NCBI GenBank assembly: GCA_017503105.1
Contig: JAFVTS010000033.1
Location: forward strand, 1 to 36,323
Source of the DNA: Clostridia bacterium
GTDB lineage: Bacteria > Bacillota > Clostridia > Oscillospirales > CAG-272
Length of the DNA: 36,323 nucleotides
Direction: 5' to 3'
A model generated the notes under the pieces. The model was not told the DNA's origin and did no database searches. It saw only the letters and a program-made list of their open reading frames with translations. This document shows positions 5,731-36,323 of the stretch, piece after piece (the first letter of the stretch is position 1; each line of letters begins with the position of its first letter). Position numbers and translations under genes: made by a program.

Positions 5731-5797
5731 GCGGCATCCGTGTGAAAATAGCACTCAAAAATGTCAACTAAAATTTACAAAACACGGAGATGCTAAA

Positions 5798-19050: not shown

Positions 19051-22000
19051 TTATACGGAAGGAATGTAATCTCCCGTATAAATTTTGATGTCGTCAAACG
19101 CGATACCGCCGATGCCGTTGCCTTCGGAGTCAACGTTTGTTCCGACGTGCCAATTTATGACGTTCGAAACGCCGACGTACCATTCCTCAAAGGAGGCGTA
19201 GCTTTCGGCAACCACGGAAGGAACGGCGACGTTCGTGCTTGCTATAACGCTTCCGTCCTCGTTGTATGCTGTCAGGGTGGCTGCTGTTATATCAAGAGTG
19301 AAGATGATCTTCGTAAAGCTTTCGCTCAGCGTTCCGATGACAAGATTTGCGTCGCCGCTTAGAAGTATCTCACCGCTCTTTTTCGTCTGGAAAAGACTTA
19401 TGACGTTCTTGAACGTTGAGTCACTCTTGTAAGAACGGGTTCTGAAGCTCGTGTCGCTGCTGCGTCCGTTAAGCGCAGCAAGGGAAATCTCGTAGGTGAT
19501 CTTGCCGCCGCCCGCGGAAACCTTTGAGAAAAGCTTTGAATCCGTATAGCTGATAGTAGTGTCGTTGGTACCGGTGTATGCTGCAATATAAGTATTGCCT
19601 TGCTCGTCCGTTTCCGCCTTTATGAGCGTTCCCGTCTTGCCGTTGAGCTGATAGCTGATGCCGTCGCACGTTTGGTTTGTGTTTTCAAGATATGCCGTTG
19701 AGTCTGTGAAATCTTTTTCGAAAATAACGATTCTGTATTTTGCGTAAAGATATACGGGCTCGTTCGAGTTCGGCATATTAAGAACGTTTACCTTCGTTGA
19801 TTCTTCAAAATTCGCGGAGGTGTACCAGCCGATGAATTCCGCACCGCTAAGCGTGGGGATGGGAAGATTTGCGTCAACTCCGACGGTATAGAGCTGATCG
19901 TACTCACCGCTGAGCGTGCCTTCTCCTGCGTCGTAGAATATTTTGTTCATATTCTCGGGCAATGACGCATCCTTGGGAATATACTCGCCTACGTAGACGT
20001 TAACGTTGTCGTAGAGAATCCCGCTGCTAATGCCGAAATGCCAATAGAAGAAATAGGTGGAGGCTGCAAACCAATCCGCAACGGTCTCGTACGTTCCTGC
20101 GGTGACTTGAGGCACCGTAGCTTCTGTGCTCAGTATCTCGTAGCCGTATACGTCGTATGCGGTTATCGTAGCGGCGTAAATGTCGAAGGTGAAAATGAAT
20201 CTCTTGAAGCTTGTCGTAAGCTCTCCGACACTCTTGCCCGCAACGTTGTTGAGAATAACTTGCCCCGCAGAGTTCGTTCCAAAGATGTTGATGGTATCTG
20301 ACGATCCTCCGTTACCGCGAACCTTGAACGAGGTCGTGGAGAATTTGCCCTCTTCGAGGAGCGCAAGGTCTATCTCGTACGTTACCTTTCCGCCGCCCGC
20401 GATAGTTGCCGCAACGGCGTTCTGAGGCTTGTAGCTCAGGCTTGCGTCGGTTCCCTCGGTACGAAGTCTGATGTAAGTGTTACCGTTTTCATCCGTAACC
20501 GCCTCCGCCGAAGCTCCCGTTTTACCTGAAAGCTGATATATGATGCCGTCGACGGTCTTGTTTTCTTCATTCACCACCATATCGGATCCTGTAAAGTCCA
20601 AATTCTTTATGACGGTGTTATACTTTGCGTAAAGCTTAATGGGCTCGTCGGCAGTTTCCGCGTTGATAACGGAGATCTCAGTGCCCTTATCGAACGTAGG
20701 CGTCGTATACCAGCCCACGAAGACCGATCCGTCGGGAACGGAGGGAGAGGGAAGGGTGATCTGCTCGCCTATTTTATAAAGGTCGGGCACATCTGTCGGA
20801 AGCGTGCCGACACCCGCGTTGTAAATTATTTTGTTCGTACCCTCGGGGAGAACGGGTTCTACCCATACGTACTCGCCGGTGTAGATCTTGACGTTGTCGT
20901 ATGCAACACCGCCGCCTGCACTTATCTGGAAGTTGAAGCCGTAGGTCGTTGCTCCGAACCAATCCGCAAAGGTTTCAAAGCTTTCCGCGGATACGGCAGG
21001 AACACTTACGGGAACGGTGTAAAGTGCCTCGCCGCTTTCGGTGCTGTAAGCCGTCAGCGTTTCCTTGTAAACGTCAAGGGTAAATACGAACTTGGTGAGC
21101 TTCGTAGTAAGAGCTCCGACCACGCACTTGGAATCGTTGCTGAGAATAACGGTGCCCGCCTTAGTGATGCTGAAGATGTAAACTCCGTCGCTCGACGTGT
21201 TAGCACCGCGCGCCCTGAAGCTCGTAGCGCTTATTCTGCCGTCGTCGGTAGTCGCAAGGTCGATCTCATACGTTACCTTGCCGCCTCCGCTGAGGACCGT
21301 CTGTCCAAGGGTGGAGTTCATATAGTTTACCGTAGCGTCCTTTTCGTTTGTCTCGACACGGATGTAGGTGTTGCCGTTTGCATCCTTCACAGCCTTGACA
21401 CGAGTTCCCGTCTTGCCGTTTATAACGTAAGAGATACCGCAGTCGGTTGCCGCCTCGGCCTCTTTGTCAAGAGTGGACGAGCTGAAGTCAGTGTTGAAGA
21501 TCACGGTGTTGAACTTAGCGTAAACTCTGATGGGCGCGTCTGCATTTGTCGCGTCGATAACGCTGATCTCGGTGCCCTCCTCGAAGGTGGGAGACGTATA
21601 CCATCCCATAAATTGCGCGTCCGGCGCGGAAAGGGTGGGAAGCGTGTAGGGGGTGCCTACGGTGTAAAGGTCAGGGGTGCCGTCAGGAAGCGTCGCAGGT
21701 CCCGTCTGGTATATAATTACGTTCGATCCCTCGGGGATAACACCCTCTGCGGGGACGTACTCACCGGAGTAGATCTTAACGTTATCAAAGAGCAGACCGC
21801 CGTGTGCGCTGAAGTGCCAGTTGAGGCAGAACGAAACTGCGGCGAACCAATCGGCAACGGTTTCGTAAAGGTCTGCCGTGACCTTGGGAACGCTGACCTT
21901 TACGCTTGCTATCTCTAATCCGTAGATGCTGTACGCCGTGATAGTTTCGGCGTAGATGTCAAAGGTGAAGATGAACTTCTGAAGATCGGTAGTGAGCGCG

Positions 22001-25000
22001 CCTATCCCGAGCTTGCCGTTAAGGAGCACGTTGCCCGCGGAGTTTGTCGTGAAGATGTTGATAGTGTCGCTCGAACCGCCGTCTCCACGGGGCTTAAACG
22101 ATGTCGTCGGGAATCTTCCCTCTTCAATAAGTGCAAGATCGATCTCGTACGTGACCTTTCCGCCTGCGCTTATAGCGGCGGAAGAAACGGGCGCGTAGTT
22201 GTTAATAGAGGCGTCAGCGCCGTCTGTGTAAATTTTAACATACTTATTGCCGCTCTCGTCGGTCTCTGTCTTTGCGTAGGAACCGATCTTTCCGTTCAGC
22301 TGATAGAGAAAATCGTCTACCGTAACGTTTTTCTCTAAAACGTCGACCTCGGAGTCTGTGAAGTCTTCATCAACAAGAGTGATAGAGCACTTAGCGTAAA
22401 GCGTGATAGGTGCGTCCGCGTTTTCTGCGGTCAAGGCTTCAATTTTTGTTCCCTCGTCAAAGGTTTGAGTCGTGTACCAGCCGAGGAATGTGCCGTTATC
22501 TACCACAGGCTCGGGAATCGTAACGGTTTCTCCCACGGTATAAGTCTTGGGATACTTGTCTATGAACCGGGATGTACCAAGCTTATAAATGATTCTGTTA
22601 GTCCCCTCGGGAAGAATGTTTTCGGGTGCCATATATTCGCCGCAGTAGACCTTAATATTGTCGACGAGCATCGACTCACCGCCCGTAGGCTGAGGAGAGT
22701 TGGAACCCATCCACCAGTTGAAGGTGTAAGTGAGCGCGAGCATATAATCGAGGGTGGTTGGATGCGCGGACCCCTTAGGAACGGTAAACGCTACGTCCGC
22801 GAGGAGATCTCCGAACTCGTTATATGCGTAGAGCATAGCGTTCGCGAAATCTACCGTAACTACGACCTTTTGGAACTCGTCGTTAAGAACGAAGAGCGTG
22901 GTGCCACCGAACTTAACGGAGCCGTCTTCAAGCGTTTTGAAGAGCGTGACGCGCTGGCTCGTCGTTTCTTCTCTTAGCATAAAGCTTGACGCAAGAGGCG
23001 CCTTGTCTCCGTTTCTTGCAAGCTCGACCTCGTAGGTGATCTTAGTGTCGCCAAGTCCGATAAAGGTTGCTACGTCTTCGTGAGCGTCAAGCTGCATATC
23101 TCTCTCGGTTCTTGAAAGTGCAAGGAACTTGTTACCCGTTTCCGCATTCGTCAGGATCTCGAACCAGGAGCCTTTCTTGCCGTTTCCTCCGTATTGGATC
23201 TTTCCGAAGGTCTTGTTTACTTCGCCAAAGGCGAAGGAGAGGTCTTCAAAGTCCTCGTTGATAGGATAGCTTCTGTATTTTGCGTATACTGCGAATTTAC
23301 CTTTTTGAGTGGGTGTTATTTCGGTCACGAGCGTTTCTTCCTCGAAGTAAGGAGAAGTATACCATCCAAGGAAGGTGTCCTCGCCTCTTACTATGTTTGC
23401 GGGAAGGACGATAGTCTGACCTATCTCATATACGAGAGGTGCGTCGTCGGGCACGATGCCGCCGTAAGAGTTGTAAATTATGCGTCCGCCGTTAGACGGA
23501 GCGATATTGGAGCCGGGCTTAACGCGTACCTCGCCCGCGGGAGCGTAGAACGTGATCATTCCGCCCTCTTCGGAGGAAACTCTGTGAGCGACGTTGATAC
23601 CGTCAACCTCAATATTCCACGTTCCCTCGAAAAGTCCGCAGACGTAGTATTTGATAAGTCCCGTGCCCTCGGCTTCGAATACGAGCTCGTCGGTGGATCT
23701 ATCCTGTGACTTCGTGAAAACGACTACTGTGTCGTCGAGCTGCGTACCGATGAGAAGGTCCGATTCAAACATATCTATATCAAGCTTTTCGTCGTTCGTC
23801 GCGTCCGTTACGTACATAACGTTGAAGAATTCGCTTGCAATAGATCCCGTGTTGGAGAGCTCAACGCGTCCCCACATTCCGTCGGAGCCCGTCGTTGTAA
23901 GAGCGCATTGCACGCCGTTTATAAGGTAGTTTTTGCCGTCGCCGCCAAGGGGAGTTATCTCGTCAGCGCCCTTTAAGGCGTGAAGAACGAGTCTGCCTTC
24001 CATATCCGTGATAGTGACGGTCTTGTTTTCAGCGTCTATCACGGGCTCCGTCGGCGTGTGAAGAAGGAATTTGTTGACGAAATTCTCGTTTGTCGTAGTT
24101 ATAGAGTCGTAAACGAGGAAGATCATCGGGTAATTTTCGTCACCCGTGAATATCGAAAGCATATTTCTTCCGACAAACTTTGCCTGCGTCGGAAGGTACG
24201 CCGTGGATATATCACCCGCAAGATAAACGTATTCCGCCTTGCCTTCCTCGGTCAGCTTGTATTCCTGACCGAGCACGGTGCCCGTGTTGGTGCTCGTGTT
24301 GGCGAGCCAGCTGTCAAGGTCGGAGAAGCCCGAGAATTTGTGGACCTGGCTACCCGTGTAGAAAATTCTCGACAGATTCGTCGCGTTTTCAACGCTTGTG
24401 CCGTTAAGCTCTGCGTCCGCAAGATCGGGGTTGAATATGAGCAGTCCGTTGTGCGCAACGGTTTCCTGATGGTAATAGTTGAAGTGCGTCGAGCCGTACT
24501 TGTCGTAGACGCCCGACTCGCCCGAGTAAAGACCCTTATAGTATATCTGGAAGGTACCGCCGTCGCCGTGCTCGTGGTTGGCTGTGTGCTTGATACCGAC
24601 CTTCATAAATATAGAGGGAACGTCGGGAGTGCCCCATTCCTCTCTCGCTATCATCTGTCCTACGGGATAGGAGTGATAAATAACGGGAGAAGCGCCGTTA
24701 TTGATGTCGTCCGCATCCGTCGTTCCGAGCTTGTCGTAGTAAGTAGCTCCGAGTATGAGATGATGGGCAAGGGACATTTCTATGGAGTGACCCGTGATCC
24801 TTGTGGTATCGAAGGTGCCGCCGAAGAATTCAAGCGCAACGCCTCTCATACCCGCGTCACCGTAGAGCGCGGCGATGAGAATTGCGCTGTTCGCCATTCT
24901 TTCCGATACCTTTTTAGGAAGTCCGCCGTCACCCGTTCCGAAGAACGAACCGCCGGGAGTTCTGTATTCAAGGAAGGAACGCGTTATTCTTTGAAGATCG

Positions 25001-26535
25001 TCGGTGTAAGGATTCTCACCCGTTGCCTGAAGGAGCATCCAGGCGCTCCAGATGTCCGCGTTGTGACGGAATGGCGCGTAGTTGTTGACACCCTGAGGAT
25101 AAGTACCCGAGGTGAAGTAATGATTACGCACCGCGATGAAGTCGTTGTAGATTCTGCTCGCGCATTCCTCGTACCAGGACGGGTTTTCGTCGAATATCGC
25201 GATAGCAACGGAGAGATAGTCGCGAAGGAGCTGATGCTCCGAGCCGTGACCCGCAACCGAGCCCTGAAGCTTTGGAGGGTATCCTATCTCCATCTGCGCG
25301 TCACCCGATTGGCAAAGACCCGAGAACTCGGGCGGAACGTCGCTCGCGCAAATATCCGTGATGGCGATCATAAACTGATTTTTGTCGTTCTCGGAGAGAA
25401 GATCGTGACACCAGTCGTATACCTCTGCCGCGCAGTAGATCGTACGTCCGAACTCACGGCACTGGTCACTGTGTATCCAACCGAGCTCAAGCGTCTTCAG
25501 ATAATTCTTCATAGCGAGGATAGCTTGATAGCCGTATTCCTCGTCACCCGTGAGAAGATAAGCGAAAGCCTTTGCCTCGATTATCGAAAGACCCTTTTCA
25601 TCTACGTTATGGAAGCCGATTCTGCCCGTTTCGTGCTTATACGGGGCTTTGAGAACTCCGTTAAACTCTTCGTTCGCCTTTTTTATCAGGGACTCGTAGA
25701 AGTATACCGCCTCTTCGGCGCCCGAATCAATGTAGGCGCGGACGAGCTCGAGGGTGTGCTTGTTTACGTTGAGCCTCGGATGCTCACCGACCGTGGGATA
25801 AAGCTGAGGCGAGCCCCAGTCCGTGTCGGGCATTACGGTGAAGTCAAGGGTGACGTAGTCTGAGAAATCGGAGAAGGAGAAGCCCTCTATTGCTTCTTTA
25901 AGTTCCTTGATCCTTTGAAGTCTTGCGGCTTCCTTTTCCGCCTCTATCCTGTCCTGTTCCTCCTTGAGCTCGGCTTCGTATTCCGCCCTTGAGAGGGAAA
26001 CGATGAGCCAAAGATCGTTTTTCACAACGAAGGACGAATCTCTGACGAACAGATCAAAGAAGTCTTTGTAGCCTCTTGAGAATGCCTCGTCAGTCGCCGC
26101 GTTGAAGGCAAACTTGCCGTCACGGAAGGCAAAGCCCCAGACGAGCGAGTCGTTTGTCACGCTTGACACGCAAATCTCGCGAAGCTCTGCTGAGAGCTGT
26201 CGGTTCGTGTTACCGATAAGTATCTCGTATTTGCTTTCGCCTTGGACCGTGTCCATTCTCGCCGCAACGGTTTGTCCCGAGCCTCTGAGCGCGGTTCTTA
26301 ACTCCGTAGCAAGCGTCGCGTCGAGCTGGTTTGCGTCCGATGAGAATATTATCGTATATTGGTTATCACTCGGGACGAGGACGGTTTCGTCCTCCGAAAC
26401 GAGCTTGGCACTTGTCCTTGCGTTTTCCGCATCGACCGAGTCTGTCGCTCCGATTTGAAAAACGAGCGCGAGCGCAGCGGTCAGAATAAAGAGCGTAAAA
26501 GCAAAGCGGAAAAAGTGCTTTGATAAAGCTTTCAT
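19051..26535 (-). CDS. Giant secreted heparinase II/III-like protein with five tandem InlB-like/jelly-roll modules
   Basis: 2494 residues. A basic N-terminus and hydrophobic helix (about 5-30) form a signal peptide or anchor. A region to about 180 precedes a charged coiled coil (about 183-214). A heparinase II/III-type lyase unit follows (about 240-1000): a helical toroid with SVAGHGSEHQLLRDYLS and a beta-domain with NHEHGDGGTF near 655. This would cleave uronic-acid polysaccharides by beta-elimination. Then come five copies of an InlB-like repeat (starting near 1015, 1315, 1605, 1900, 2198, with FLGWYT) each joined to a jelly-roll module ending in DNVKIYxGEY. The period is about 290 residues. 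No LPXTG, SLH or dockerin is seen. The ATG at 26535 has AAGGAG just upstream; an in-frame ATG ten codons earlier lies before it. Confidence 0.88.
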   Translation of the reverse strand: MKALSKHFFRFAFTLFILTAALALVFQIGATDSVDAENARTSAKLVSEDETVLVPSDNQYTIIFSSDANQLDATLATELRTALRGSGQTVAARMDTVQGESKYEILIGNTNRQLSAELREICVSSVTNDSLVWGFAFRDGKFAFNAATDEAFSRGYKDFFDLFVRDSSFVVKNDLWLIVSLSRAEYEAELKEEQDRIEAEKEAARLQRIKELKEAIEGFSFSDFSDYVTLDFTVMPDTDWGSPQLYPTVGEHPRLNVNKHTLELVRAYIDSGAEEAVYFYESLIKKANEEFNGVLKAPYKHETGRIGFHNVDEKGLSIIEAKAFAYLLTGDEEYGYQAILAMKNYLKTLELGWIHSDQCREFGRTIYCAAEVYDWCHDLLSENDKNQFMIAITDICASDVPPEFSGLCQSGDAQMEIGYPPKLQGSVAGHGSEHQLLRDYLSVAIAIFDENPSWYEECASRIYNDFIAVRNHYFTSGTYPQGVNNYAPFRHNADIWSAWMLLQATGENPYTDDLQRITRSFLEYRTPGGSFFGTGDGGLPKKVSERMANSAILIAALYGDAGMRGVALEFFGGTFDTTRITGHSIEMSLAHHLILGATYYDKLGTTDADDINNGASPVIYHSYPVGQMIAREEWGTPDVPSIFMKVGIKHTANHEHGDGGTFQIYYKGLYSGESGVYDKYGSTHFNYYHQETVAHNGLLIFNPDLADAELNGTSVENATNLSRIFYTGSQVHKFSGFSDLDSWLANTSTNTGTVLGQEYKLTEEGKAEYVYLAGDISTAYLPTQAKFVGRNMLSIFTGDENYPMIFLVYDSITTTNENFVNKFLLHTPTEPVIDAENKTVTITDMEGRLVLHALKGADEITPLGGDGKNYLINGVQCALTTTGSDGMWGRVELSNTGSIASEFFNVMYVTDATNDEKLDIDMFESDLLIGTQLDDTVVVFTKSQDRSTDELVFEAEGTGLIKYYVCGLFEGTWNIEVDGINVAHRVSSEEGGMITFYAPAGEVRVKPGSNIAPSNGGRIIYNSYGGIVPDDAPLVYEIGQTIVLPANIVRGEDTFLGWYTSPYFEEETLVTEITPTQKGKFAVYAKYRSYPINEDFEDLSFAFGEVNKTFGKIQYGGNGKKGSWFEILTNAETGNKFLALSRTERDMQLDAHEDVATFIGLGDTKITYEVELARNGDKAPLASSFMLREETTSQRVTLFKTLEDGSVKFGGTTLFVLNDEFQKVVVTVDFANAMLYAYNEFGDLLADVAFTVPKGSAHPTTLDYMLALTYTFNWWMGSNSPQPTGGESMLVDNIKVYCGEYMAPENILPEGTNRIIYKLGTSRFIDKYPKTYTVGETVTIPEPVVDNGTFLGWYTTQTFDEGTKIEALTAENADAPITLYAKCSITLVDEDFTDSEVDVLEKNVTVDDFLYQLNGKIGSYAKTETDESGNKYVKIYTDGADASINNYAPVSSAAISAGGKVTYEIDLALIEEGRFPTTSFKPRGDGGSSDTINIFTTNSAGNVLLNGKLGIGALTTDLQKFIFTFDIYAETITAYSIYGLEIASVKVSVPKVTADLYETVADWFAAVSFCLNWHFSAHGGLLFDNVKIYSGEYVPAEGVIPEGSNVIIYQTGPATLPDGTPDLYTVGTPYTLPTLSAPDAQFMGWYTSPTFEEGTEISVIDATNADAPIRVYAKFNTVIFNTDFSSSTLDKEAEAATDCGISYVINGKTGTRVKAVKDANGNTYIRVETNEKDATVNYMNSTLGQTVLSGGGKVTYEIDLATTDDGRISATSFRARGANTSSDGVYIFSITKAGTVILSNDSKCVVGALTTKLTKFVFTLDVYKETLTAYSTESGEALYTVPVSVPAVSAESFETFADWFGATTYGFNFQISAGGGVAYDNVKIYTGEYVWVEPVLPEGTNKIIYNAGVGTLPTDVPDLYKIGEQITLPSPSVPDGSVFVGWYTTPTFDKGTEISVINAETADEPIKLYAKYNTVIKNLDFTGSDMVVNEENKTVDGIIYQLSGKTGASAEAVTDENGNTYIRLRTEGTDASLSYKPQNAVAATIAGGGKVTYEIDLALLEEGKFSTTSFKVRGNGGSSDTINIFGTNSAGQVILNNVAGKSVGELTTSFKRFIFTFDIYAATITAYDVYGYEILSTEATVPQVTAGTYETVADWFAASTYFFYWHFGISSGILYDNVNVYVGEYIPKDASLPENMNKIFYDAGEGTLSGEYDQLYTVGVDANLPIPTLSGAEFIGWYTSANFEESTKVNVLNMPNSNEPVYLYAKYRIVIFEKDFTDSTAYLENTNQTCDGISYQLNGKTGTLIKAETDEQGNTYIAAYTGTNDTTISYTDSKLFSKVSAGGGKITYEISLAALNGRSSDTSFRTRSYKSDSTFKNVISLFQTKKSGEILLSGDANLVIGTLSESFTKIIFTLDITAATLTAYNEDGSVIASTNVAVPSVVAESYASFEEWYVGVSNVINWHVGTNVDSEGNGIGGIAFDDIKIYTGDYIPSV

Positions 26536-26564
26536 ATATGGCTCCTTAAAGTTGTAATTTGACA

Positions 26565-26600
26565 AAAACCGCTCACAGGTAATAACCCGTGAGCGGTTTT
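26565..26600. terminator. Strong terminator-like hairpin upstream of the giant gene
   Basis: A perfect 12-bp stem, AAAACCGCTCAC (26565-26576) with GTGAGCGGTTTT (26589-26600), with 12-base loop and T tracts on both strands. It lies 15 bases after the 44-aa gene and only about 17 bases before the ribosome site of the giant gene, leaving no room for a separate consensus promoter between them. It may act as a partial terminator or processing site that lowers expression of the giant protein. Confidence 0.8.
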
Positions 26601-26770: not shown

Positions 26771-29700
26771 TTAAGCGGTGTACTTCTCAGCCGCTTCGCA
26801 GTAGAGGTATATCGCCTTTGCGAGATTTTCGAAGCTTTCACCGAACGTTTCGCTTGCAAGAACGGCTTCTACGGCAGAAAGTATACTTACGTTGACGGAT
26901 GCAACGCTTTCGCCGTCGGTGATAACGATGACGTTATTAGCGCCGAGCTGTGCAGGATTCGTCTTGTTGATGGTGATGAAGTATTCTTCACCGTCAGCGA
27001 TAGCATTCTGTGCCTTGCCGTTAACGGTGACCTCTGCGTTCTCGGAAGCCTTGAAGTAGAACTTCATAATAGTAGAGGATGTGAGAGTGAGAGTAGCACC
27101 GGTAAGCTCGATGTTGCCGATCACGTTTGCCGTGATCTTGTAGTCTGCAAGATCAGCTGCGGTGATAGCGGAAACGTCCTTGTCAGCCTCGGAGAGTCCT
27201 GCGTTTGCAAGAACATTGGCGATCGTCGCGTCGCCGTTCTTCTCAGCGAAGTAGAGCTGTGCGTATGCGCCGTAGTTGAGCGTTGCCTTGATAAGAGCCT
27301 TTTCGTTCTCGTCTTCCGAGGTCTTAGCAAGCTCTTCAAGATAGTTGGTGATGCTCGTGGTGTAAGCCGCGGAGGTCTCACCGTCGGCAACGATCGCTAC
27401 CGTTACGTCCTCGGTCATATAGGTTGCGCGAAGAGGAAGAGCTACCTTGTACGTGCCGTTTTCCTCAGCCGTAAGCTCGGAGAGAAGATATTCCTTCGTC
27501 ATATCCTTAGCGGAGATAACGACCTTTGCGCCTTCAGCCTCGAGAAGAGCCTTTTCAAGCTTGAGGTATGCGTTCATACTGATGAGCTCGCCGAGTGCCG
27601 CGTTGCGTCCTACGACCGCTGCGCTCTCGGAGATAGCCTGACCGTCGCAGATCTCGCAGTGATGTTCGGGAACAACAGTCTTTCCGCAATCCTGGCAAAC
27701 ACCGTCCTCGTCAATGTCCTTGTGGAGACACTCAAGGATCTCGTTGGTGTAGTAAACCTTGAAGTTGTCGAGGTACATAGAGTCGTTAGAACCGGGGTTG
27801 AACTGTGCAAGACGGATAATGCTGGGGATGAAGTCGGTCTTGCCGTTAATGGAGAGGATCTTGTTGCCCTCTGCGTCTGTCGCTGCGTCTGCGGGGTAGT
27901 CGATCTTGTTGCTAACACCGTCCGTGACCGTTCCACCGTTGGTGAACGCGGAGCTCGACCAGGTCGCTGCATCTGCGTGCGCCTTTGAAAGAGCGGTAAC
28001 GTCTGCTTCAACGAGCTCACCGTCAAGGAAGAAGTCGTAGGTGTTATTTGCGGGAGTGTGGTGAATGGTTATCTCGTGCCAAGCGTTGTCCTTAAGGTTC
28101 TTGACGGTCTTGTTGGTGACAGCACCGGGATCGTTGCCTTCAACGAAGGAATTTGCGTAATTTCTGTAAGCAAGGTTGCCGTCAGCGTTAAGGATAATGG
28201 GGGAGAAGGCGATACGCGTGCTCGTTGACGTCATAGCCTTAAGGTCAGCGTCGGTCATATTGTTGGTACCTGTCATATAGGAGATGACCTCGAAGAAGTT
28301 AGCGATGCTTCCGCCGGGATTGCCATTATAATAAGCGCCTTCAAATTTCTCGTCAAGCTTAACGGAAATGGAGATCGTGTACGACTTGCCCTTGTAGGTG
28401 GCAAAGTTCTGCATCAAGCCTGCGTAGGAATTTACAGGCGCGTTGCCTGTCTGAGTGTAAGAGGAGGCGGGAGTCGTGTCGTCTTTAGGACCGTACTTAA
28501 GCACGTGGTTGCCGTCGATCTCAACTACTTCAAGAGCCGTATGGGTGCCTGAGCATCCGTCCCAGTCTGCGGCGCCGTCCTTCGTGAAGTCAGCGTCCTT
28601 AACGAGCTTGTTGCCCGTTGCCTGGGTGTAAGCCTTGATTTCGTCCGTGGTGAGGTAAGAACCTCTGTAATCAGCCACGTTGAACATATCGATAACGGCG
28701 GATTCGGTCTTGCCGCACTGCGTGCAGGTGTAAGTCACGGTGTTCTTTGCGTTCTCGATGTCGTGGGAGTGAGTCATTTCGATCTTATGATCGCACTCAA
28801 GGAACTCACCGTAGTAGGCCCTGATGTTGTCAAGCGCCATAACGTCGGCTTCAACCTTGCCTGTCATCTGGGTGAATCTGATCATAGAGGGGATGTAATT
28901 TGCAGCGCTGTTACCGACAAGGCCGTAATTGTTCCAAGCCTCTTTACCGGTGTAATCAACGTTTTGAGAATCCCTAACAGCCTTTATGTCGTTTGCAACG
29001 CAAAGACCGTCGACGTAAATGTCATAGGAGTTCGTCGCGGGAGTGTGATAGAAGGTGATGTTTACAAACTCGCCGATCGGAATCTTGTGTCCTGTTGATA
29101 CCCAAGTGCTGGTGTCTACTTTTCTGTAGCGCACGGTACCGTCCTTCAAAATCTGAATGGGAGACCAGGAGATGTTCGACGTTTTCGACGTGGTTTCTGT
29201 ATTCTCTACGATAAGAGTGGGGGAGCGAAGCTCAAAGAGCACGGTGTCGTAGTTACCGTAGTTCATATAATCCAGGGTAATTGCGTAGGACTTACCGCCG
29301 AGCGTATACCAATCCTTAGCAACGTTTGCCATAGTCGTCGAATGGGAATCTATCTGGAGGTACTCACCGGTAAGAGAGCCGGTGTAGTAGTAGTCAGCCG
29401 CGCCCTCTTCGGGGGATGTTGCGGTGATGTTCTTTTCTTCGTCGATTGTAACGTACTCTGTAACGGGTCTTTGATATTTAATGTAGGTGTTTCCGTTTTC
29501 CTCTGCGAATACTACCTGTTTGAACATTGTGTGTGTTCCGACAGGCTTAGCATTGTCGCCGCCGGAGCATACTCGGATATTAGTTCCGTCGATGCCGTCC
29601 GTCCAAAGGTAAGGAGCGATTTCCGTTTCTCCCGTAAACTCGCCGCCGCCTATAAAGCCGCTGCCTACGAGCGCTTTGATCTCTGCGGGAGTGAGCTCCT

Positions 29701-31153
29701 TGTAATCGCCGAAGTAGCCGATGCCGCCCGAGCAAACGTCACAAACTCTGTCGGAGTTTGCATCAAGTGCCTCGTAAACGGTCTTTACGCCATCGCAGAG
29801 GGTGCAGGCGTACTCGCAAAGAACGAGGTCGCTGTCGAAGTCGTGCTTGTGCTCGCCGAGTACAAGGTCGTGATCTTTGAGCGTGCCTGCGTAATCCTCG
29901 CCGTAGTAGACCATAACGTTATCGAAGTAATAAGCATCATCGGTGTAGGGGTTGGTGAGGGCGTAGCCGGAAAGTCTGAGGTTCTGGAAGAGTCTGACAC
30001 CCGCAAGGCGGAAATCAGCAACACCCGAGCAGGTTCCGATAGCTACGGGGGTGGGCGCGTTGGTCGCCTTGCCGTCATCACCAAAAGTGATGTAAGAGCT
30101 GATGGACTCAAGAATGTCGATAAGACCGTCACCGTCCGTATCGGTGTAGTCGATCTCGTCGGTGAAGAAGTAAGCCTTCGTTGCATTCGTCATAGACGCC
30201 GCGCTCGGAGTAGCGGTGAAGAAGGGAACGTCCTCTGCCTTTTTAAGATAGTCGTTGTTCAATTTGGGGAGGAAGCCGAGATCTTCAAAGACGAGCTCGC
30301 CGTTGATGTAAACGTCGTACGAACCGTAACGGCCTGCTGCGGCGTCAACGTCCTGAGGATCAACGTGAACGGCAACGGTATAGTTCTTTCCGGGCTCTAT
30401 ATAGTATTTTGTATTGGTATAATAATTCGAAGAGCTCTTAGAGTTGTCGCGGAAAGCGAAGAATGCATTTCTCTCGCTGTCAACGTGCACCTTGCCGTAA
30501 GTAAGCCAACTTCCCTGTGTAATGTTACCCTTGGTGTACTGATACGATGCGATCTGTATAATTCCAAGAGAGCCATCTATATCTGTTGTAGTATTGGTTT
30601 CATCGATGAAGGTCTGGGTGATCTCAACGTCGATCTGAACGGTGAAGTTCTGACCCTTAGACTTTGAGTTCGCGTAATTCGTAATAGCGGAACTTGCATT
30701 GCCCGTGTCGGTGTGTTGGGTCACGTTGACGTAAGAGTCGTTGATGGAGCTTCCCGTAAGCTTATCAAATTCTGTCTGAAGGTTCTTGTCAAGAGCTCCG
30801 TAGACGAATCTGCCGTCCTCGGTAACGCCGAAGCGACCTGCCTTGTTCACGAAGGTCAATCCGCCGCCTGCGGCAGCGTTGCCGATGATAAATGCGTTTT
30901 TGCTTGTACCTCCGTTGTAGGAGTAATAGGAGGTGCCCTTAGCGTATCCGGGGATGAGCTTTTCGATCACCTCGGGGGTATGCGCCTTAAGCGTGTTTGA
31001 AACGACTGTACCCGCGGTGGGCACGGTTGCGTCCTCGCCCGCTACTGCTTCCTCTGCTGCAAGAGCCGCTTCTTCTACCGCAAAGAGCGTCAGCGACATA
31101 CATGAGAAGAGCATTACGAGTGCGAGAACAAATGAGAGAATGCGTTTTTTCAT
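26771..31153 (-). CDS. Large secreted protein with three jelly-roll/Cys modules and a clostridial C-terminal domain
   Basis: 1460 residues with a clear signal peptide (MKKRILSFVLALVMLFSCMSL at the start, cleavage probably after about 26). Three large beta-rich, ConA/LamG-like modules end in DNVMVYYGED (about 414), DNIRAYYGEF (about 778) and DNFKVYYTNE (about 1131). Each is followed by a short His/Cys cluster (for example CTQCGK and CQDCGK). A single calcium-binding loop DTDGDGLID lies near 340. The last about 290 residues are a domain with LNYGAYAQLYF and a final LAKAIYLYCEAAEKY, a type I associate with large secreted proteins of gut Clostridia. No catalytic domain is visible, so a carbohydrate-binding or surface role is likely. 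The ATG has AAAGGA 9 bases upstream. Confidence 0.88.
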   Translation of the reverse strand: MKKRILSFVLALVMLFSCMSLTLFAVEEAALAAEEAVAGEDATVPTAGTVVSNTLKAHTPEVIEKLIPGYAKGTSYYSYNGGTSKNAFIIGNAAAGGGLTFVNKAGRFGVTEDGRFVYGALDKNLQTEFDKLTGSSINDSYVNVTQHTDTGNASSAITNYANSKSKGQNFTVQIDVEITQTFIDETNTTTDIDGSLGIIQIASYQYTKGNITQGSWLTYGKVHVDSERNAFFAFRDNSKSSSNYYTNTKYYIEPGKNYTVAVHVDPQDVDAAAGRYGSYDVYINGELVFEDLGFLPKLNNDYLKKAEDVPFFTATPSAASMTNATKAYFFTDEIDYTDTDGDGLIDILESISSYITFGDDGKATNAPTPVAIGTCSGVADFRLAGVRLFQNLRLSGYALTNPYTDDAYYFDNVMVYYGEDYAGTLKDHDLVLGEHKHDFDSDLVLCEYACTLCDGVKTVYEALDANSDRVCDVCSGGIGYFGDYKELTPAEIKALVGSGFIGGGEFTGETEIAPYLWTDGIDGTNIRVCSGGDNAKPVGTHTMFKQVVFAEENGNTYIKYQRPVTEYVTIDEEKNITATSPEEGAADYYYTGSLTGEYLQIDSHSTTMANVAKDWYTLGGKSYAITLDYMNYGNYDTVLFELRSPTLIVENTETTSKTSNISWSPIQILKDGTVRYRKVDTSTWVSTGHKIPIGEFVNITFYHTPATNSYDIYVDGLCVANDIKAVRDSQNVDYTGKEAWNNYGLVGNSAANYIPSMIRFTQMTGKVEADVMALDNIRAYYGEFLECDHKIEMTHSHDIENAKNTVTYTCTQCGKTESAVIDMFNVADYRGSYLTTDEIKAYTQATGNKLVKDADFTKDGAADWDGCSGTHTALEVVEIDGNHVLKYGPKDDTTPASSYTQTGNAPVNSYAGLMQNFATYKGKSYTISISVKLDEKFEGAYYNGNPGGSIANFFEVISYMTGTNNMTDADLKAMTSTSTRIAFSPIILNADGNLAYRNYANSFVEGNDPGAVTNKTVKNLKDNAWHEITIHHTPANNTYDFFLDGELVEADVTALSKAHADAATWSSSAFTNGGTVTDGVSNKIDYPADAATDAEGNKILSINGKTDFIPSIIRLAQFNPGSNDSMYLDNFKVYYTNEILECLHKDIDEDGVCQDCGKTVVPEHHCEICDGQAISESAAVVGRNAALGELISMNAYLKLEKALLEAEGAKVVISAKDMTKEYLLSELTAEENGTYKVALPLRATYMTEDVTVAIVADGETSAAYTTSITNYLEELAKTSEDENEKALIKATLNYGAYAQLYFAEKNGDATIANVLANAGLSEADKDVSAITAADLADYKITANVIGNIELTGATLTLTSSTIMKFYFKASENAEVTVNGKAQNAIADGEEYFITINKTNPAQLGANNVIVITDGESVASVNVSILSAVEAVLASETFGESFENLAKAIYLYCEAAEKYTA

Positions 31154-31225
31154 GAGAGTTTTTCCTTTCGTTTTATTTTTTAATTAAACGCAAATAAAAA
31201 GTGAAATTTCATCCACTTTAGTCAT

Positions 31226-31254
31226 ATTGTATCATTAGCTGAAGCTTTTGTCAA
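31226..31254 (-). promoter_or_regulatory. Promoter of the 1460-aa / 44-aa / giant protein operon
   Basis: Minus strand TTGACA (31254-31249), 17-bp spacer, TACAAT (31231-31226). The leader of about 65 nt contains a 6-bp hairpin AAAGTG/CACTTT. A second perfect 10-bp palindrome, GCACAAAAAC/GTTTTTGTGC (31281-31308), lies just upstream and could be a regulator site. Confidence 0.8.
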
Positions 31255-31308
31255 TACGAATTTGCAAAAATCGGCGACTCGCACAAAAACGAGATGGTGT
31301 TTTTGTGC

Positions 31309-31889
31309 AAAAAGCGAAGAAAGAATTAAGAAACTTTATTTAAAATAATATTGCCAAAAAAGAGGCGAGTCTCCAATATATCAATATAGTTCAAATTTAC
31401 ATCAATTTTATACAAACGTGCGGAAAGCGTCGTTTCTCTGATTTTGAAAAGCACAGCTTCGATTCTCAGAAAATAAATTTCAAGCCAGCGGTCCGTGGGG
31501 CTCTTTTCAGCCGTCCGCTGCCGCACCTCGACGCGCAGCGTCCTTGAACGGAAAAGTCTACATTCTTATATAAAAAATGCACCGCAAAGAGGCAGAAATA
31601 TTCTTTTTTGCTCGGAAATTTCTTGAAATAGAGAAAAATGATAGAGTTTTTTTAAAAAACACTTGCAAAATCACGCTTCTTGTGCTAAAATAATATAGCA
31701 AACGCAAATTTGGGTGTAAAGCCTTTTTTTGCGGACGTCGGACCGATAATACCGCATAGCGCAAAAAGCTAAAGCAAGAATAGCGGCGCCGCACCTTTGC
31801 CGCAATATCAAAATGCGTAAAAATCACCCCCGATAAAACGAAAAACCGCTCTCCTATAACAAAATTTGCCCTATAATAAAATTTAATAC
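31309..31889. other. Intergenic stretch without a convincing gene
   Basis: About 580 bp, AT-rich. Two short minus-strand frames here lack ribosome sites and recognisable sequence. A plus-strand promoter-like pair TTGCAA (31663-31668), 17 bp, TAAAAT (31686-31691) points toward the tRNA remnant. TATAAT at 31872-31877 lies 12 bases before the remnant, where a tRNA gene's own -10 box would be expected. Nothing else recognised. Confidence 0.5.
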
Positions 31890-31930
31890 GCCTGCATAGT
31901 TAAATGGATATAATAACCCCCTCCTAAGGG
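31890..31930 (+). pseudogene. Truncated tRNA-Arg(CCT) copy
   Basis: 41 nt identical to the first 41 nt of the intact tRNA-Arg at 32068, including acceptor 5' strand, D arm and anticodon loop, breaking off within the 3' side of the anticodon stem. It then runs into unrelated sequence containing an inverted repeat TCGCTATAT/ATATAGCGA (31932-31965). It cannot fold as a tRNA. It most likely marks a recombination junction of a tRNA-targeting element. Confidence 0.85.
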
Positions 31931-32019
31931 TTCGCTATATCCACCTAAAAACCACTATATAGCGACAAAAACTCCAAAATAACACTATATCTTGTGTTTT
32001 TGCACCTACCTTCCAAAGC

Positions 32020-32043
32020 CCGGTGAAAAATCCGGTGAAAAAT
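32020..32043. repeat. Tandem 12-bp repeat CCGGTGAAAAAT
   Basis: Two adjacent copies (32020-32031, 32032-32043). The core CGGTGAAAAAT recurs inside the integrative element at 34306-34316. The repeats lie between the truncated and intact tRNA-Arg and may be arm-type binding sites of an integrase or excisionase, which would make this segment element-derived. Confidence 0.5.
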
Positions 32044-32067
32044 TAAAAACCAAAAATTAAACCAAAT

Positions 32068-32142
32068 GCCTGCATAGTTAAATGGATATAATAACCCCCT
32101 CCTAAGGGGTAGTTACAGGTTCGATTCCTGTTGCGGGTGCCA
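32068..32142 (+). tRNA. tRNA-Arg (anticodon CCT)
   Basis: 75 nt including an encoded CCA. Acceptor GCCTGCA pairs with TGCGGGT (G-U closing pair and one internal G-U). The anticodon stem is ACCCC/GGGGT with loop CTCCTAA, so the anticodon is CCT, reading AGG. The T arm has CAGGTTCGATTCCTG. Discriminator G. It is the attachment gene of the adjacent integrative element. Confidence 0.95.
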
Positions 32143-32181
32143 GAATTTACTGATTTTATGGTAAATGATGCGTTTTTTCAT

Positions 32182-32220
32182 AAAAGACGGCAGTGATTTT
32201 TTAGTCACTACCGTCTTTTT
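32182..32220. terminator. Bidirectional terminator between tRNA-Arg and the integrase gene
   Basis: Stem AAAGACGG-AGTGA with TCACT-CCGTCTTT (one internal mismatch) and loop TTTTTTAG, with A-rich left and T-rich right flanks. It can end both the tRNA transcript and the integrase transcript arriving from the right. Confidence 0.82.
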
Positions 32221-32287
32221 CTTTGCCTTTTTACGAACTTCTGTCGTCATATTACAACGTTTGTTCTTGTTAATCTCGGTACGCATA

Positions 32288-33724
32288 TTATTCGTCCGCT
32301 TTAGATTCTGTCAAATTATCAAGCACGTAAACAACCTGTGATTTCGTGTCCGGGATAAAGTGACTGTATACCTTCAGGGTTATCGTTGAGTCGCTGTGAC
32401 CCATATATCTGCTCACCGTCTGAATGGGAACGTTTTGTGAAAGGAGCAAGCTGCAATAGGTATGTCTTAAGCCGTGGCAGCTTATGTCCTTCGTACCCCA
32501 CGCCTTTTCGTATTTTTTTAACCACTGGGTTATTGTACACTCTCCCACGGGTTGCCTATATATGTTTGACGCAACGTAGTATTCGTCTTTCTTTAAATCA
32601 AAATCATCATCTGAAAGCTTGAACCATTTTTCAAACTCTAAAAGATCTTTTAAAAGCGCGTCGGGAAGCGGTATATCTCTTATAGAGTTTTTCGTTTTCG
32701 GGTCTTTTTCATAATAGCCGAGCTCCTTTGCATATAAGCGATTACGTCTTATATGCACGACTCTTTTTTCATAATCAATATCACTCCACCGAAGTCCGTT
32801 CATTTCAGCTATGCGAACACCGGTCAAAAGCATAAATTTTAGCGGTATACGCTTGTAATTCATATCCCCCGGCAGCTCGTCAAGCCGTCTTAAAAAATCC
32901 TGAGCCTCACGCATATTGAAAACCTCTTTTTCCTTGATGGGCTTTAAGGAAACGTTGCTATTGCCGGCATTTAATTTAGTACCCACAACAGGATTTTTTT
33001 GTATCCATTCATAGCGTAAAGCCTCGTTGAATACAGTCCTCAGTATTCGTCTTAATCCCTTTACGGTCTCTACGGAATACTGTCCGACAGTTACGTTTCG
33101 TTCAAAGTAATCGTCAAATTTAAGACGGTACTTCTCACACATTCTTTCTGCCGCTTCTGTCCTTATGCTTGCTTCTTTAAAGCGCAGATTGTAGGACGCG
33201 TTTCTTGATATAATTCCTTCTCTTTCAAGCGCTCTTAAATTTACAAACGGAGCAAAATCTTTTTTCATTCGCGAGGTTTCGGACTTTTCATACGTGCCCG
33301 TTAAGTATTGATTCAAGAACAGCTGAATATCTCTTACCTTGATTTCCGAAACGGGTGATTTATAAAGTCTTTGCTCCTTAAGGAAAGCATTGAATTTCTT
33401 TTCCGTATCATCAGCCCTTAAATAATAAGAATACGATAGCGTTTTCTTTACACCGTCCTTCCATTCCGACATAAGCTCGGGGAATGTTGGAACACGCGTT
33501 CTTACCTGTACGTTGCCTTTTTCATAAGCATCTCGGATCTCGTCTTCAAATTCTCTTGCCGTCCTTTCCACAAGCCTTCGGAATTTCGCCTCGGATAGGT
33601 TATCTGTGTTGTAGACACGCTTTGAGAATACACTGTTCTCGCCCGTTTTCGGATTCTTGCCGCTTGCTTGAATTTTGGCTACAAGCTCGCCTCTTTTGTT
33701 TTTCTCGATTTTGAAATAAGCCAC
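32288..33724 (-). CDS. int: Tyrosine site-specific recombinase (integrase)
   Basis: 478 residues with the three parts of large Firmicutes element integrases: an N-terminal arm-binding domain (about 1-60), a SAM-like core-binding domain (about 75-200) and a catalytic domain (about 260-470). Catalytic residues are visible: R304 (TGVRIAE), H417 and R420 (HGLRH), H443 (MGHSD) and nucleophile Y453 (LKVYSHF). The enzyme looks intact. The start is GTG with AGGAGG 9 bases upstream. It lies next to tRNA-Arg, reading toward it, as usual for an element whose left attachment site is in that tRNA. It is co-transcribed after the excisionase-like gene (21-base gap). Confidence 0.95.
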   Translation of the reverse strand: MAYFKIEKNKRGELVAKIQASGKNPKTGENSVFSKRVYNTDNLSEAKFRRLVERTAREFEDEIRDAYEKGNVQVRTRVPTFPELMSEWKDGVKKTLSYSYYLRADDTEKKFNAFLKEQRLYKSPVSEIKVRDIQLFLNQYLTGTYEKSETSRMKKDFAPFVNLRALEREGIISRNASYNLRFKEASIRTEAAERMCEKYRLKFDDYFERNVTVGQYSVETVKGLRRILRTVFNEALRYEWIQKNPVVGTKLNAGNSNVSLKPIKEKEVFNMREAQDFLRRLDELPGDMNYKRIPLKFMLLTGVRIAEMNGLRWSDIDYEKRVVHIRRNRLYAKELGYYEKDPKTKNSIRDIPLPDALLKDLLEFEKWFKLSDDDFDLKKDEYYVASNIYRQPVGECTITQWLKKYEKAWGTKDISCHGLRHTYCSLLLSQNVPIQTVSRYMGHSDSTITLKVYSHFIPDTKSQVVYVLDNLTESKADE

Positions 33725-33745
33725 TTGACTTTTCCTCCTGTTTTT

Positions 33746-33919
33746 TTACGTCGAGATATAGTCGAGCAGGCTCTGTACGTTTACGAGCACTTTATTTCCG
33801 GCGGTAAGGCTTTTTACTTTTCCTTCCTTACACCAAGCGCGGATAGTGTGTACCGTAATAGCCGTATCAGGGTCCTTTTCACGAATTATCTCGTAAGCTT
33901 TTTTGATGCTTCTCAGCAT
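33746..33919 (-). CDS. Excisionase-like small DNA-binding protein
   Basis: 57 residues from ATG 33919 (MLRSIKKAYEIIRE), chosen because AAAGGAGG precedes it; a longer in-frame version from 34012 would start inside the promoter region. The centre (ITVHTIRAWCKEGKVKSLTAGNK) reads as a winged helix-turn-helix of the MerR/excisionase type, with a final NVQSLLDYI helix. Such proteins bend the att site and favour excision by the partner integrase. The gene is immediately upstream of int and downstream of the left operator-promoter module. Confidence 0.82.
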   Translation of the reverse strand: MLRSIKKAYEIIREKDPDTAITVHTIRAWCKEGKVKSLTAGNKVLVNVQSLLDYIST

Positions 33920-34010
33920 TTCCGCTCTACCTCCTTTCATTTTCATAAGTGAAAGAAACGCACCTTTTAAGCGGCAAGTTTTGTTTGGTGAAGTAACTTT
34001 CTTTGCTTTC

Positions 34011-34107
34011 ATCGTATCATAAAAAATGCGGAAATGCGAGAGGTCTATGGTAGGTTCTTGAGGTGTTTTGGTAGGGTAAAAGAGAGGTAAGAGGGGGGTA
34101 CGGTAGG
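34011..34107 (-). promoter_or_regulatory. Left operator-promoter module driving xis-int
   Basis: On the minus strand, a -35-like TCGCAT (34039-34034), 17-bp spacer and TACGAT (34016-34011). Upstream are copies of the CCTACCAAA motif: CCTACCATA at 34054-34046, CCTACCAAA at 34075-34067 (exactly 21 bp away), and CCTACCGTA at 34107-34099. The proximal copy begins 15 bp before the -35, the same distance as in the right-hand module. The poor -35 suggests activator dependence. Confidence 0.7.
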
Positions 34108-34163
34108 AGATTTTACACCCATCCCAAAAACAACTACACTTCCAAAAGAAATCAGCAACGGAG

Positions 34164-34266
34164 AATTGTCAAGTGGAAAAGGGTCTTTTCGAAAAAATAC
34201 GTCTTTGTTTTCTTCTTTTATTTCATAAGTCTTTTTTTCAATTTTTGTTTTCACCTCTTGACAATT
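34164..34266. repeat. Inverted repeat AATTGTCAAG
   Basis: A perfect 10-bp inverted repeat, AATTGTCAAG (34164-34173) and CTTGACAATT (34257-34266), with 83 bp between arms and further similarity beyond (GTGGAAAA against GAGGTGAAAA). No convincing gene lies in 34108-34330. It could be a regulator site or a DNA-processing site of the element. Confidence 0.4.
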
Positions 34267-34331
34267 TGAACGGGGATGATTATTCAAAGTCGTTTAACTT
34301 CAAATCGGTGAAAAATCAAAACTCTTCTTCC

Positions 34332-34371
34332 TAAAAAAACAAGTCCTACGACGTATTTAACACCGTAGGAC
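34332..34371 (-). terminator. Terminator of the HTH regulator gene
   Basis: A perfect 8-bp stem GTCCTACG/CGTAGGAC (34343-34350 with 34364-34371), followed on the minus strand by TTGTTTTTTT. It begins 20 bases after the stop codon at 34391. Confidence 0.82.
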
Positions 34372-34390
34372 CTTTGCTTTTTATTGATTT

Positions 34391-35473
34391 TTATTCACAA
34401 TCTTTCTTTGTAAAATCCTTTGCTACCTCTGAATAGTATTCGTTTTCCGGAAAGAGTATTCGGTTTGCATCGGTTGCCCGTGATTTCATAAGAATAAGCG
34501 CTTCGGCGGCATCTTTCGGCGGCATTGTGTTTCTCAAAGAATTTAATATCTGATTTTCGTCTATCACATAGTATTCCTGACAGCAATAATCAAAAATATA
34601 CTTTAAATTATCTCTGAGAGCCGCAACCTTTTTATCCTTTTTCGCTAATTCGTCGAGTGCCTTTTTAGGAATGTGGAAGGTGTCGTCGTTCATAAGAAGA
34701 AGCCCTTTAATCAAATCCATATATTCAGCTCTTGCTTCGTCTGTTAACAGAACGAATGACTGTACCATGGGAACTCTGTCAGAGCTTCTGCCCTGGGTGA
34801 GAATCGCACCGCATCTATAATATAATTCGCGCTTGCGGTATTCTACATAATTGAAGGAAAAGACGTAGTAAGTTCCGGAGTTTTCCTTGAACGTTATATT
34901 AACTACACTCGGTTCAACCCAAACCGGAGTGCCCCAAAGCGTTTTTGTGCCCGTTGTCTTCTCTCCGCCCGGATTAACGGTATTGTACGTCACCTTTAAA
35001 ATTGCAACGGTCTTTTCACCCTCGCGCTTTATTTCCATAACGAAGGAATCGAGAAAATCGTTCATCTTTTTGGATGAATAAAGATAACCGTAAAACGTGC
35101 CAAAATACTTTTCGTCGTTTAATTCTCTGAACTTCGACGATACGTAAAGATCGTCGCTTTCGATTTTATCATCGTTTTCCGTAGGCTCGGAGAAAATATA
35201 TGCTATATCCAAGTTAAGGCACTTACACATTGCCATAACGCAGAAAATATCAAGCGAATTCTTGGAAAAATCAAACGTCTTGCGGAAAGTTTCGTAATTT
35301 AACTCGTAACCGCATTCTTTATTCAATTTTTCCACCATTGCATAATAAGTCATTTTGGATAATTCAAAGGCTGCATACAGCCTTTTTTTAATTGCTGTTA
35401 TTTGAGCGTCACGAATATAGTTCTTGTCTCTCTTTCGTGGGATTGCAGCTTTTTTCTTTGTCGTTTTTTCCAT
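34391..35473 (-). CDS. Putative HTH-type regulator of the integrative element
   Basis: 360 residues. A very basic N-terminus (TTKKKAAIPRKRDK) is followed by a helical region at about 25-95 whose pattern (KRLYAAFELSKMTYYAMVEKL, then TFRKTFDFSKNSLDIFCVMA) resembles a Cro/cI-type helix-turn-helix with a downstream helix. The remaining about 250 residues are mixed alpha/beta with no motif I recognise. It is soluble. A perfect promoter and a strong ribosome site (AAAGGAG) indicate solid expression. It is divergent from the small sigma-4-like gene. It is a candidate for the protein that binds the CCTACCAAA repeats, which is inference; it could also be a replication or partition protein. Confidence 0.72.
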   Translation of the reverse strand: MEKTTKKKAAIPRKRDKNYIRDAQITAIKKRLYAAFELSKMTYYAMVEKLNKECGYELNYETFRKTFDFSKNSLDIFCVMAMCKCLNLDIAYIFSEPTENDDKIESDDLYVSSKFRELNDEKYFGTFYGYLYSSKKMNDFLDSFVMEIKREGEKTVAILKVTYNTVNPGGEKTTGTKTLWGTPVWVEPSVVNITFKENSGTYYVFSFNYVEYRKRELYYRCGAILTQGRSSDRVPMVQSFVLLTDEARAEYMDLIKGLLLMNDDTFHIPKKALDELAKKDKKVAALRDNLKYIFDYCCQEYYVIDENQILNSLRNTMPPKDAAEALILMKSRATDANRILFPENEYYSEVAKDFTKKDCE

Positions 35474-35508
35474 TTTTTCTTCTCCTTTTGCTTTTAATTG
35501 TTTGACTC

Positions 35509-35537
35509 ATTATATCACAACGTTATCTCAATGTCAA
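35509..35537 (-). promoter_or_regulatory. Consensus promoter of the HTH regulator gene
   Basis: Minus strand TTGACA (35537-35532), 17-bp spacer, TATAAT (35514-35509): 12 of 12 consensus bases, about 35 bp before the start codon. Confidence 0.88.
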
Positions 35538-35770
35538 TAGGATTTAAAGCAAAACTGAAAATTTTATTTCACATTCTGTAAATTTAAGATTGAAACTATA
35601 AGGACGTTTCCTGCTGCTTTTCAGAAGATTTTCGAGCTTAAAAATGCTACAATAAAGATGGATCAAGCAGCTGTAAAAATCCAAAAAAACAAACGGCAGA
35701 ATACTTCGTATTGTCTCGGTGACGATCGATTTAAACAATACGTGGAAATGCCCAAAAGGAAGGATTTAAA

Positions 35771-36082
35771 ATGCTTACAGAGGATCAGGTAAGACAAGAC
35801 CTTGATGAAATACGTACATATTATTCAATGCGGGATTTGTTTGATAAAGCCCCAAGGGAAATTAAAGCTGAAGCATTGTTTGAAAAACTTGAGCAGTACC
35901 ACTCGGTTATGCGAAAAGCTCCGGCAAAATTATATGTTCTTTACGTTGCACTTTACGTGAATAATTCAACGCAGGTTGTTGTTGCGGAAGAGTGGGCTTA
36001 TACAAAAGAACACGTAAGGGATTTAAACAAAAGGCTTGTTGAATATCTAATATCAAAATTAAATCGAGAATTTGTGTTTTAA
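35771..36082 (+). CDS. Small sigma-region-4-like (ArpU/DUF1492-style) regulator
   Basis: 103 residues, all helical. The N-terminal half (YYSMRDLFDKAPREIKAEAL) resembles the lead of phage and element regulators of the ArpU type. The C-terminal half (VVVAEEWAYTKEHVRDLNKRL) reads as a helix-turn-helix like sigma factor region 4. Such proteins act as positive regulators of late or transfer genes. The start has AAGGAAGG 7 bases upstream. It is divergent from the HTH regulator gene with about 300 bp between, and is followed directly by the right operator module. Family assignment is from pattern, not certain. Confidence 0.65.
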   Translation: MLTEDQVRQDLDEIRTYYSMRDLFDKAPREIKAEALFEKLEQYHSVMRKAPAKLYVLYVALYVNNSTQVVVAEEWAYTKEHVRDLNKRLVEYLISKLNREFVF

Positions 36083-36095
36083 CATCTCCAAATAA

Positions 36096-36181
36096 CCTAC
36101 CAAACTTCTCTTTTTACCTACCAAAGTTACATTTTACCCTACCAAAACACTATCGCATTTTGCATTTTTGTGGTGTAGAAT
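36096..36181 (+). promoter_or_regulatory. Right operator-promoter module with three phased CCTACCAAA repeats
   Basis: CCTACCAAA occurs at 36096-36104, 36117-36125 and 36138-36146, each exactly 21 bp apart (two helical turns). TCGCAT (36153-36158) follows 15 bp after the last repeat start, then a 17-bp spacer and TAGAAT (36176-36181). The 19-mer TTTTACCCTACCAAAACAC is shared with the left module. The module drives transcription toward the right edge. Confidence 0.75.
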
Positions 36182-36187
36182 GGAAGC

Positions 36188-36311
36188 GTAAATCCCGAGG
36201 CGAGGAAAGATCGACTTACCGTTTCTTCCGAACTTTGCAAAGGATAGGTGGCCACCTTCGATAAGACGAGGTCGCAAGAAACACAAGGTTTCAATATAAC
36301 GCCGGGATTAC
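36188..36311 (+). ncRNA. Candidate structured RNA at the right edge
   Basis: The predicted start site (about 36188) coincides with GTAAATCCCGAGGCG (36188-36202), which can pair with CGCCGGGATTAC (36300-36311) to close the whole region. Inside are GTTTCTT (36221-36227) with AAGAAAC (36276-36282), an alternative GAAAC/GTTTC hairpin near 36279-36292, and self-complementary CTTTGCAAAG and GGTGGCCACC. The first ATG after the promoter is followed by a stop after two codons. No known RNA class was recognised. It could also be a structured leader of a gene beyond the window. Confidence 0.5.
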
Positions 36312-36323
36312 AAAATTACAACC

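Follow-up and report, generated by a model that had tools for sequence, protein, structure and literature searches.

What allows a mobile element to fire its excision genes together with a second operon? This question is raised by the right-hand end of a 36,323-nucleotide contig from a Clostridia bacterium of the Oscillospirales lineage CAG-272 (JAFVTS010000033.1, assembly GCA_017503105.1), which we analyzed over its whole length and refer to as the window. Here, two promoter modules pointing in opposite directions lie ~2 kb apart in what appears to be an integrated phage-like element, one ahead of excisionase and integrase genes (xis-int) and the other ahead of a structured RNA. With a probability of about 0.7, we interpret the modules as promoters of one small regulon, in which the small protein P0001 would activate xis-int and the RNA-led operon together.

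Two promoter modules share one architecture

Both modules combine 9-bp direct repeats at 21-bp steps with a TCGCAT core at the -35 position and an ordinary -10 element (Table 1). A preliminary description, made from the sequence alone, had listed their coordinates and spacings and a shared 19-mer, all of which are correct to the base. The 19-mer TTTTACCCTACCAAAACAC is identical in the two modules and forms the inverted repeat I1, with its copies one 21-bp step out of register: it covers the distal repeat of the left module but the proximal one of the right module. Single copies of the 9-mer, allowing at most one mismatch, are no rarer than chance predicts (7 found versus 6.3 expected). Repeat pairs with 21-bp spacing and up to three mismatches occur at four places in the 2.6-Mb genome, three of which lie in these modules, and no such pair with at most one mismatch was found in the other 196 of the 197 genomes searched. 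With two flanking letters fixed, TCGCA at a distance of exactly 17 bp from TANNNT is present at two places in the window, one per module. The contig ends with the window at position 36,323, and the targets of the right module thus lie outside it; searches of the same assembly with A5 and with the 705-amino acid (aa) protein of the related element L117 did not recover the remainder of the element.

Table 1. Coordinates of the promoter modules and surrounding features in the window.
Feature	Position	Strand	Remarks
Right-module repeats	36096-36104, 36117-36125, 36138-36146	+	CCTACCAAA, three exact copies, 21-bp steps
Right-module -35 core	36153-36158	+	TCGCAT, 15 bp past start of last repeat
Right-module -10	36176-36181	+	TAGAAT, 17-bp spacer from TCGCAT
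Left-module repeats	34075-34067, 34054-34046	-	CCTACCAAA and CCTACCATA (one mismatch), 21 bp apart
Left-module -35 core	34039-34034	-	TCGCAT, 15-bp offset from repeat
Left-module -10	34016-34011	-	TACGAT, 17-bp spacer from TCGCAT
Structured RNA (leader)	36182..36318	+	starts just past right -10
Excisionase-like gene (xis)	33746..33919	-	57 aa from ATG after AGGAGGT
Tyrosine integrase	32288..33724	-	PF00589, E 3.4e-22
tRNA-Arg(cct)	32068..32142	+	adjoins integrase
P0001, sigma-4-like protein	35771..36082	+	103 aa, proposed activator
P0002	34391..35473	-	360 aa, N-terminus helix-turn-helix-like by eye

The architecture of the modules recurs in related elements

P0001 homologues in two other genomes (G103 and G050) pointed to a common conserved stretch with the palindrome GGTGGCCACC, located at the point where transcription from the right module would start. 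The 86-aa protein encoded by the first gene past this stretch served as query and returned 91 loci, of which 80, mostly from metagenome-assembled genomes of Clostridia, were kept; P0001 homologues are present in 58 of them. The RNA promoter could be anchored in 31 of 84 sequences, and 25 non-redundant ones (under 80% identity) were retained. Two of the anchored promoters (L119 and L158) were placed by hand, L121 was left out because its pattern match is not a promoter, and L013, L014 and L094 were left out of several counts as duplicates of L112, L132 and L015.

Upstream direct repeats in the 25 elements are phased at ~11, 21-22, 33 and 42 bp, also when the window is omitted; the -35 core is non-consensus and separated from the -10 by 17 bp. 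The quality of the -10 is not independent evidence, because it was part of the anchor. The first T of the core, 23 bp ahead of the start of the -10, is present in 24 of the 25. Direct repeats about two helical turns apart are also known from replication iterons and from recombinase arm sites, and the modules might be either. The fixed register to the -10 in 25 elements and the recurrence before recombinase, early and RNA operons, ~2 kb apart in the window, speak against both; we reject them on position and regard them as barely credible.

Module sequences vary between elements and lineages yet recur within an element. In 15 of the 25, the module has unusually strong best matches within its own locus, and the best matches within a locus fall before recombinases or early genes. 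When recombinase upstream regions were compared with matched and mismatched RNA modules, 13 of 19 ranked their own module first, a total reached in 0 of 20,000 permutations. The remaining six are L131, L149, L157, L158, L165 and L169; some of these reflect a misplaced gene start, as in L149 and L157, where the module lies ~270 nt before int. In several elements the early operon is preceded by a third copy, and five loci (L142, L152, L163, L165 and L167) contain three exact sites composed of core, 17-bp spacer and TANNNT. Such patterns also produce off-target matches, one of them inside the xis gene of the window. The preliminary description had staked its proposal on the repeats being conserved among homologous elements; this holds for phasing, register and the pairing of modules before a recombinase, but not for the letters of CCTACCAAA.

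None of the 25 promoters has a good TTGACA at the -35 position (0/25 with five or more matches; mean 2.92 matches, 2.55 in shuffles). This bears on the possibility that a repressor uses the modules as operators (the candidates being P0001, P0002 and, among relatives, a LexA-like protein), since there would be no strong -35 to repress. The core does overlap the -35, a frequent position for repressors, and L117 encodes a Y-family polymerase as well as a LexA-like protein that contains an S24 peptidase domain. LexA operators are palindromic, however, whereas the module repeats are direct, and a LexA-like gene is not seen in the part of the element inside the window. P0002 is probably an element-specific repressor: its gene has a sigma-70-type promoter matching at 12 of 12 positions (35537-35509), as expected of a lysogenic repressor, and a terminator-like hairpin (34373-34341). 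Yet P0002 is not conserved, with one weak relative among the 196 other genomes, none in phage records and no entry in a tblastn table of 83 relatives. We thus consider operator function of the modules unlikely. P0001 and P0002 had both been named earlier as candidate regulators, and the comparison favors P0001.

The -35 core and the P0001 recognition helix co-vary

We compared the -35 cores with the P0001 homologues encoded in the same elements. The core and the recognition helix vary together (partial r 0.39, p 0.0002); helix residues 78-84 had been fixed in advance. Core similarity tracks helix similarity beyond that of the N-terminal part of the protein, with a peak at the core; the upstream half of the module correlates with the helix as well (partial 0.31). 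Omitting the window gave a partial r of 0.53 (0/5000) with residues 79, 80, 83, 84 and 87, which were picked after the first covariation test. Adding L153, or keeping a single element from each P0001 cluster, preserves the covariation. Individual pairings serve as examples: TPEYIQM occurs with TTTCTGG, [IV]E[YH]..S with TCATTC, [FV]EYVA with TACATGG, and NDYIK or KEHVR with TCGCA. Exceptions are L153/L161 and L095.

An AlphaFold model of P0001 (predicted local distance difference test score, pLDDT, 93.9) predicts a sigma-region-4-like fold with high confidence and places the co-varying residues where the last helix of a helix-turn-helix begins. The nearest solved folds to this model are sigma regions 3-4 and the antiterminator Q21, matches that are to be taken with the caution the aligner attaches to helical folds. 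As in sigma regions 3-4 of sigma-28 and of extracytoplasmic function (ECF) sigma factors, the predicted helix-turn-helix would be located at the -35. Eight of 50 P0001 family members give a weak NCBIfam sigma70-ECF match, below the curated cut-off. In contrast to sigma factors of the sigma-70 family, the matches of P0001 cover regions 3-4 only; region 2, which binds the -10 and core polymerase, is missing, as 103 aa leave no room for it.

These findings together suggest the following mechanism. The recognition helix of P0001 would read an element-private -35 core, TCGCAT in the window, located 17 bp upstream of an ordinary -10. Host RNA polymerase could thereby start at promoters without a consensus -35. 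The upstream direct repeats, one or two helical turns apart, may assist as further binding sites on one face of the DNA or as sites for a partner. Once an inducing signal turned P0001 on, the xis-int operon, and with it excision, would fire simultaneously with the RNA-headed operon, which in relatives encodes replication and secreted or membrane proteins and may do so beyond the end of the contig. The third module before the early operon of several relatives could provide positive feedback. A single activator serving the excision genes along with a second operon or RNA had been suggested earlier, and our comparison of sequences supports such shared, element-specific control, because the module pair recurs before the recombinase, the RNA leads the second target and the core co-varies with P0001. 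Binding of P0001 to the upstream units as well is not supported, at least in a simple version, the upstream repeats being unlike the core.

Comparison with known regulators

PhoB and SARP activators replace the -35 with one-turn, 11-bp direct repeats running towards it. The modules described here resemble theirs in the one-turn direct repeats towards the -35; the protein fold differs from that of P0001.

P0001 is most likely a small phage-type, Ltr-like activator. According to the available text of PMC13123087, the repeats lie upstream of a sigma-A promoter, at -76 to -32 in TP901-1 (Alt) and at about -107 to -42 in phi13 (Ltr), where they are 18-bp units, and the late genes of tailed phages are driven. 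As far as this source describes them, Ltr of phi13, RinA and Alt of TP901-1 share with P0001 that a small protein is encoded directly upstream of its promoter, and with our modules that several direct repeats precede the promoter; the P0001 gene stops 14 bp ahead of the first right-module repeat. They differ in that the units here are phased at 10.5 bp, a recombinase is also a target and the -35 core varies by lineage with the helix. P0001 has no Pfam, PHROG or NCBIfam match to the Ltr, RinA or Alt families.

P0001 could also be a Q21-like antiterminator, which would bind the promoter, load onto RNA polymerase and use the structured RNA as part of its mechanism. Q21 matches the P0001 model over its full length and likewise has a direct-repeat site in the promoter. 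This site is located between the -35 and the -10 in the accessible part of PMC6606751, whereas the core is at the -35 in our modules and the spacer shows no covariation with P0001, which makes an antiterminator highly unlikely.

The repeats in the window have the geometry of LytTR sites, which in the available portion of PMC6193735 have a 9 bp - 12 bp - 9 bp layout and lie about 10 bp ahead of the -35; a LytTR-type regulator might bind the repeats. However, the relatives also use one-turn, 11-bp spacing, and the -35 core tracks P0001. No LytTR domain is found in the four scanned proteins of the window, whose contig ends at 36,323 with the genes beyond unseen, and inspection of the L171 early genes by eye revealed none either. 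We regard a LytTR-type regulator as most improbable.

In a bolder and tentative version of the P0001 hypothesis, the protein is a free-standing subunit resembling sigma region 3/4 that replaces the -35 reading of the host sigma factor. Its private code would drift via a few helix residues, and throughout a cryptic, filamentous-phage-like family it would command the early, excision and RNA operons; the RNA would have a role in packaging or operon control. If a common activator is confirmed, it would explain the coupling of excision to a second operon in a large, little-known family of gut elements. Its matched protein/-35 pairs would form a natural series for deducing the recognition rule of the sigma-4-like fold, and the family would also contribute a strongly co-varying structured RNA to which our Rfam searches gave no match.

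A structured RNA heads the second operon

The RNA at the head of the second operon consists in the window of an outer stem, the palindrome GGTGGCCACC and a GAAAC..GTTTC hairpin, and shares 31 consecutive identical bases with that of L013. Structured relatives are found in many of the 80 loci, with L013, L015 and the range L094-L173 as the relatives concerned. A covariance model built on nine relatives gives matches in 57 of 81 sources at E ≤ 1 and in 33 at E ≤ 0.01, the window not being among them; with filters off, the window scores 14.9 bits (E 0.05). Across 43 aligned rows, six of which are reverse-strand copies, 34 of 35 pairs show changes on both sides. In this alignment, which was fitted to the structure, 90.7% of cells pair, compared with 67.6% in shuffles. 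No Rfam family was matched in the Rfam searches made. Many loci contain small hairpin-like motifs such as GCTAACGGCAAYACGGGCAA, at times doubled, 3' of the RNA and before the 86-aa gene.

The element and its neighborhood

Genes in the relatives encode a G2P-type replication protein (Rep; PF23343), Ig-like and membrane proteins, and a serine or tyrosine recombinase. The Rep is found in L015 and L117 and is not visible in the window. A 705-708-aa protein of the relatives, which may or may not correspond to the Zot-type assembly ATPase of inoviruses, contains a P-loop-like motif by eye and has no Pfam match; in L015 it gives a weak PHROG match of unknown function. Because of the Rep and the gene order, we infer an integrated phage-like, inovirus-like element, known here from its genes. 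Neither the exact 19-mer in viral contigs nor P0001 in a protein scan of viral contigs and plasmids was found, with one qualification: the RNA core pattern matches 76 stretches in viral contigs, of which the covariance model accepts one (E 0.0019), on the IMG/VR contig L049, which encodes P0001-, p82-, p86- and p118-like proteins missed by the protein scan. The available text on gut Clostridia inoviruses in PMC10061712 mentions no promoter, integrase or repressor. Our literature searches found no paper on Christensenellaceae inoviruses, nothing related on inoviruses with structured RNA and no paper on phased repeats.

The 57-aa xis product matches HTH_17 (E 3.5e-4, under the curated cut-off) and the NCBIfam excise family (E 0.018), and is 74% identical to its L117 counterpart. 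The tRNA-Arg(cct) gene is probably the integration site.

Several further observations were made. Proteins 92-96% identical to the Rep and the 705-aa protein of L117 are encoded at 30730-33930 of MT835493.1, an unannotated 57-kb human fecal phage record. L013 and L014 are two related elements within ~25 kb on one contig (G050:C48), and L014 encodes at 4834-5955 a 373-aa protein whose HPFLDGNGR motif we take to be Fic-like; its gene is flanked by the P0001/p82 genes on one side and the RNA on the other. At L009 (G084:C139), where the RNA was not seen, a P0001 homologue (33%) lies near a DNA-methylase-like gene with AAGCACACG repeats on either side by eye. Elsewhere in the window, two very long open reading frames on the minus strand (19051-26565 and 26771-31153; 2504 and 1460 aa) lie beside the tRNA, and a ZMP/ZTP riboswitch (12278-12360, minus strand) is found upstream of a 760-aa open reading frame.
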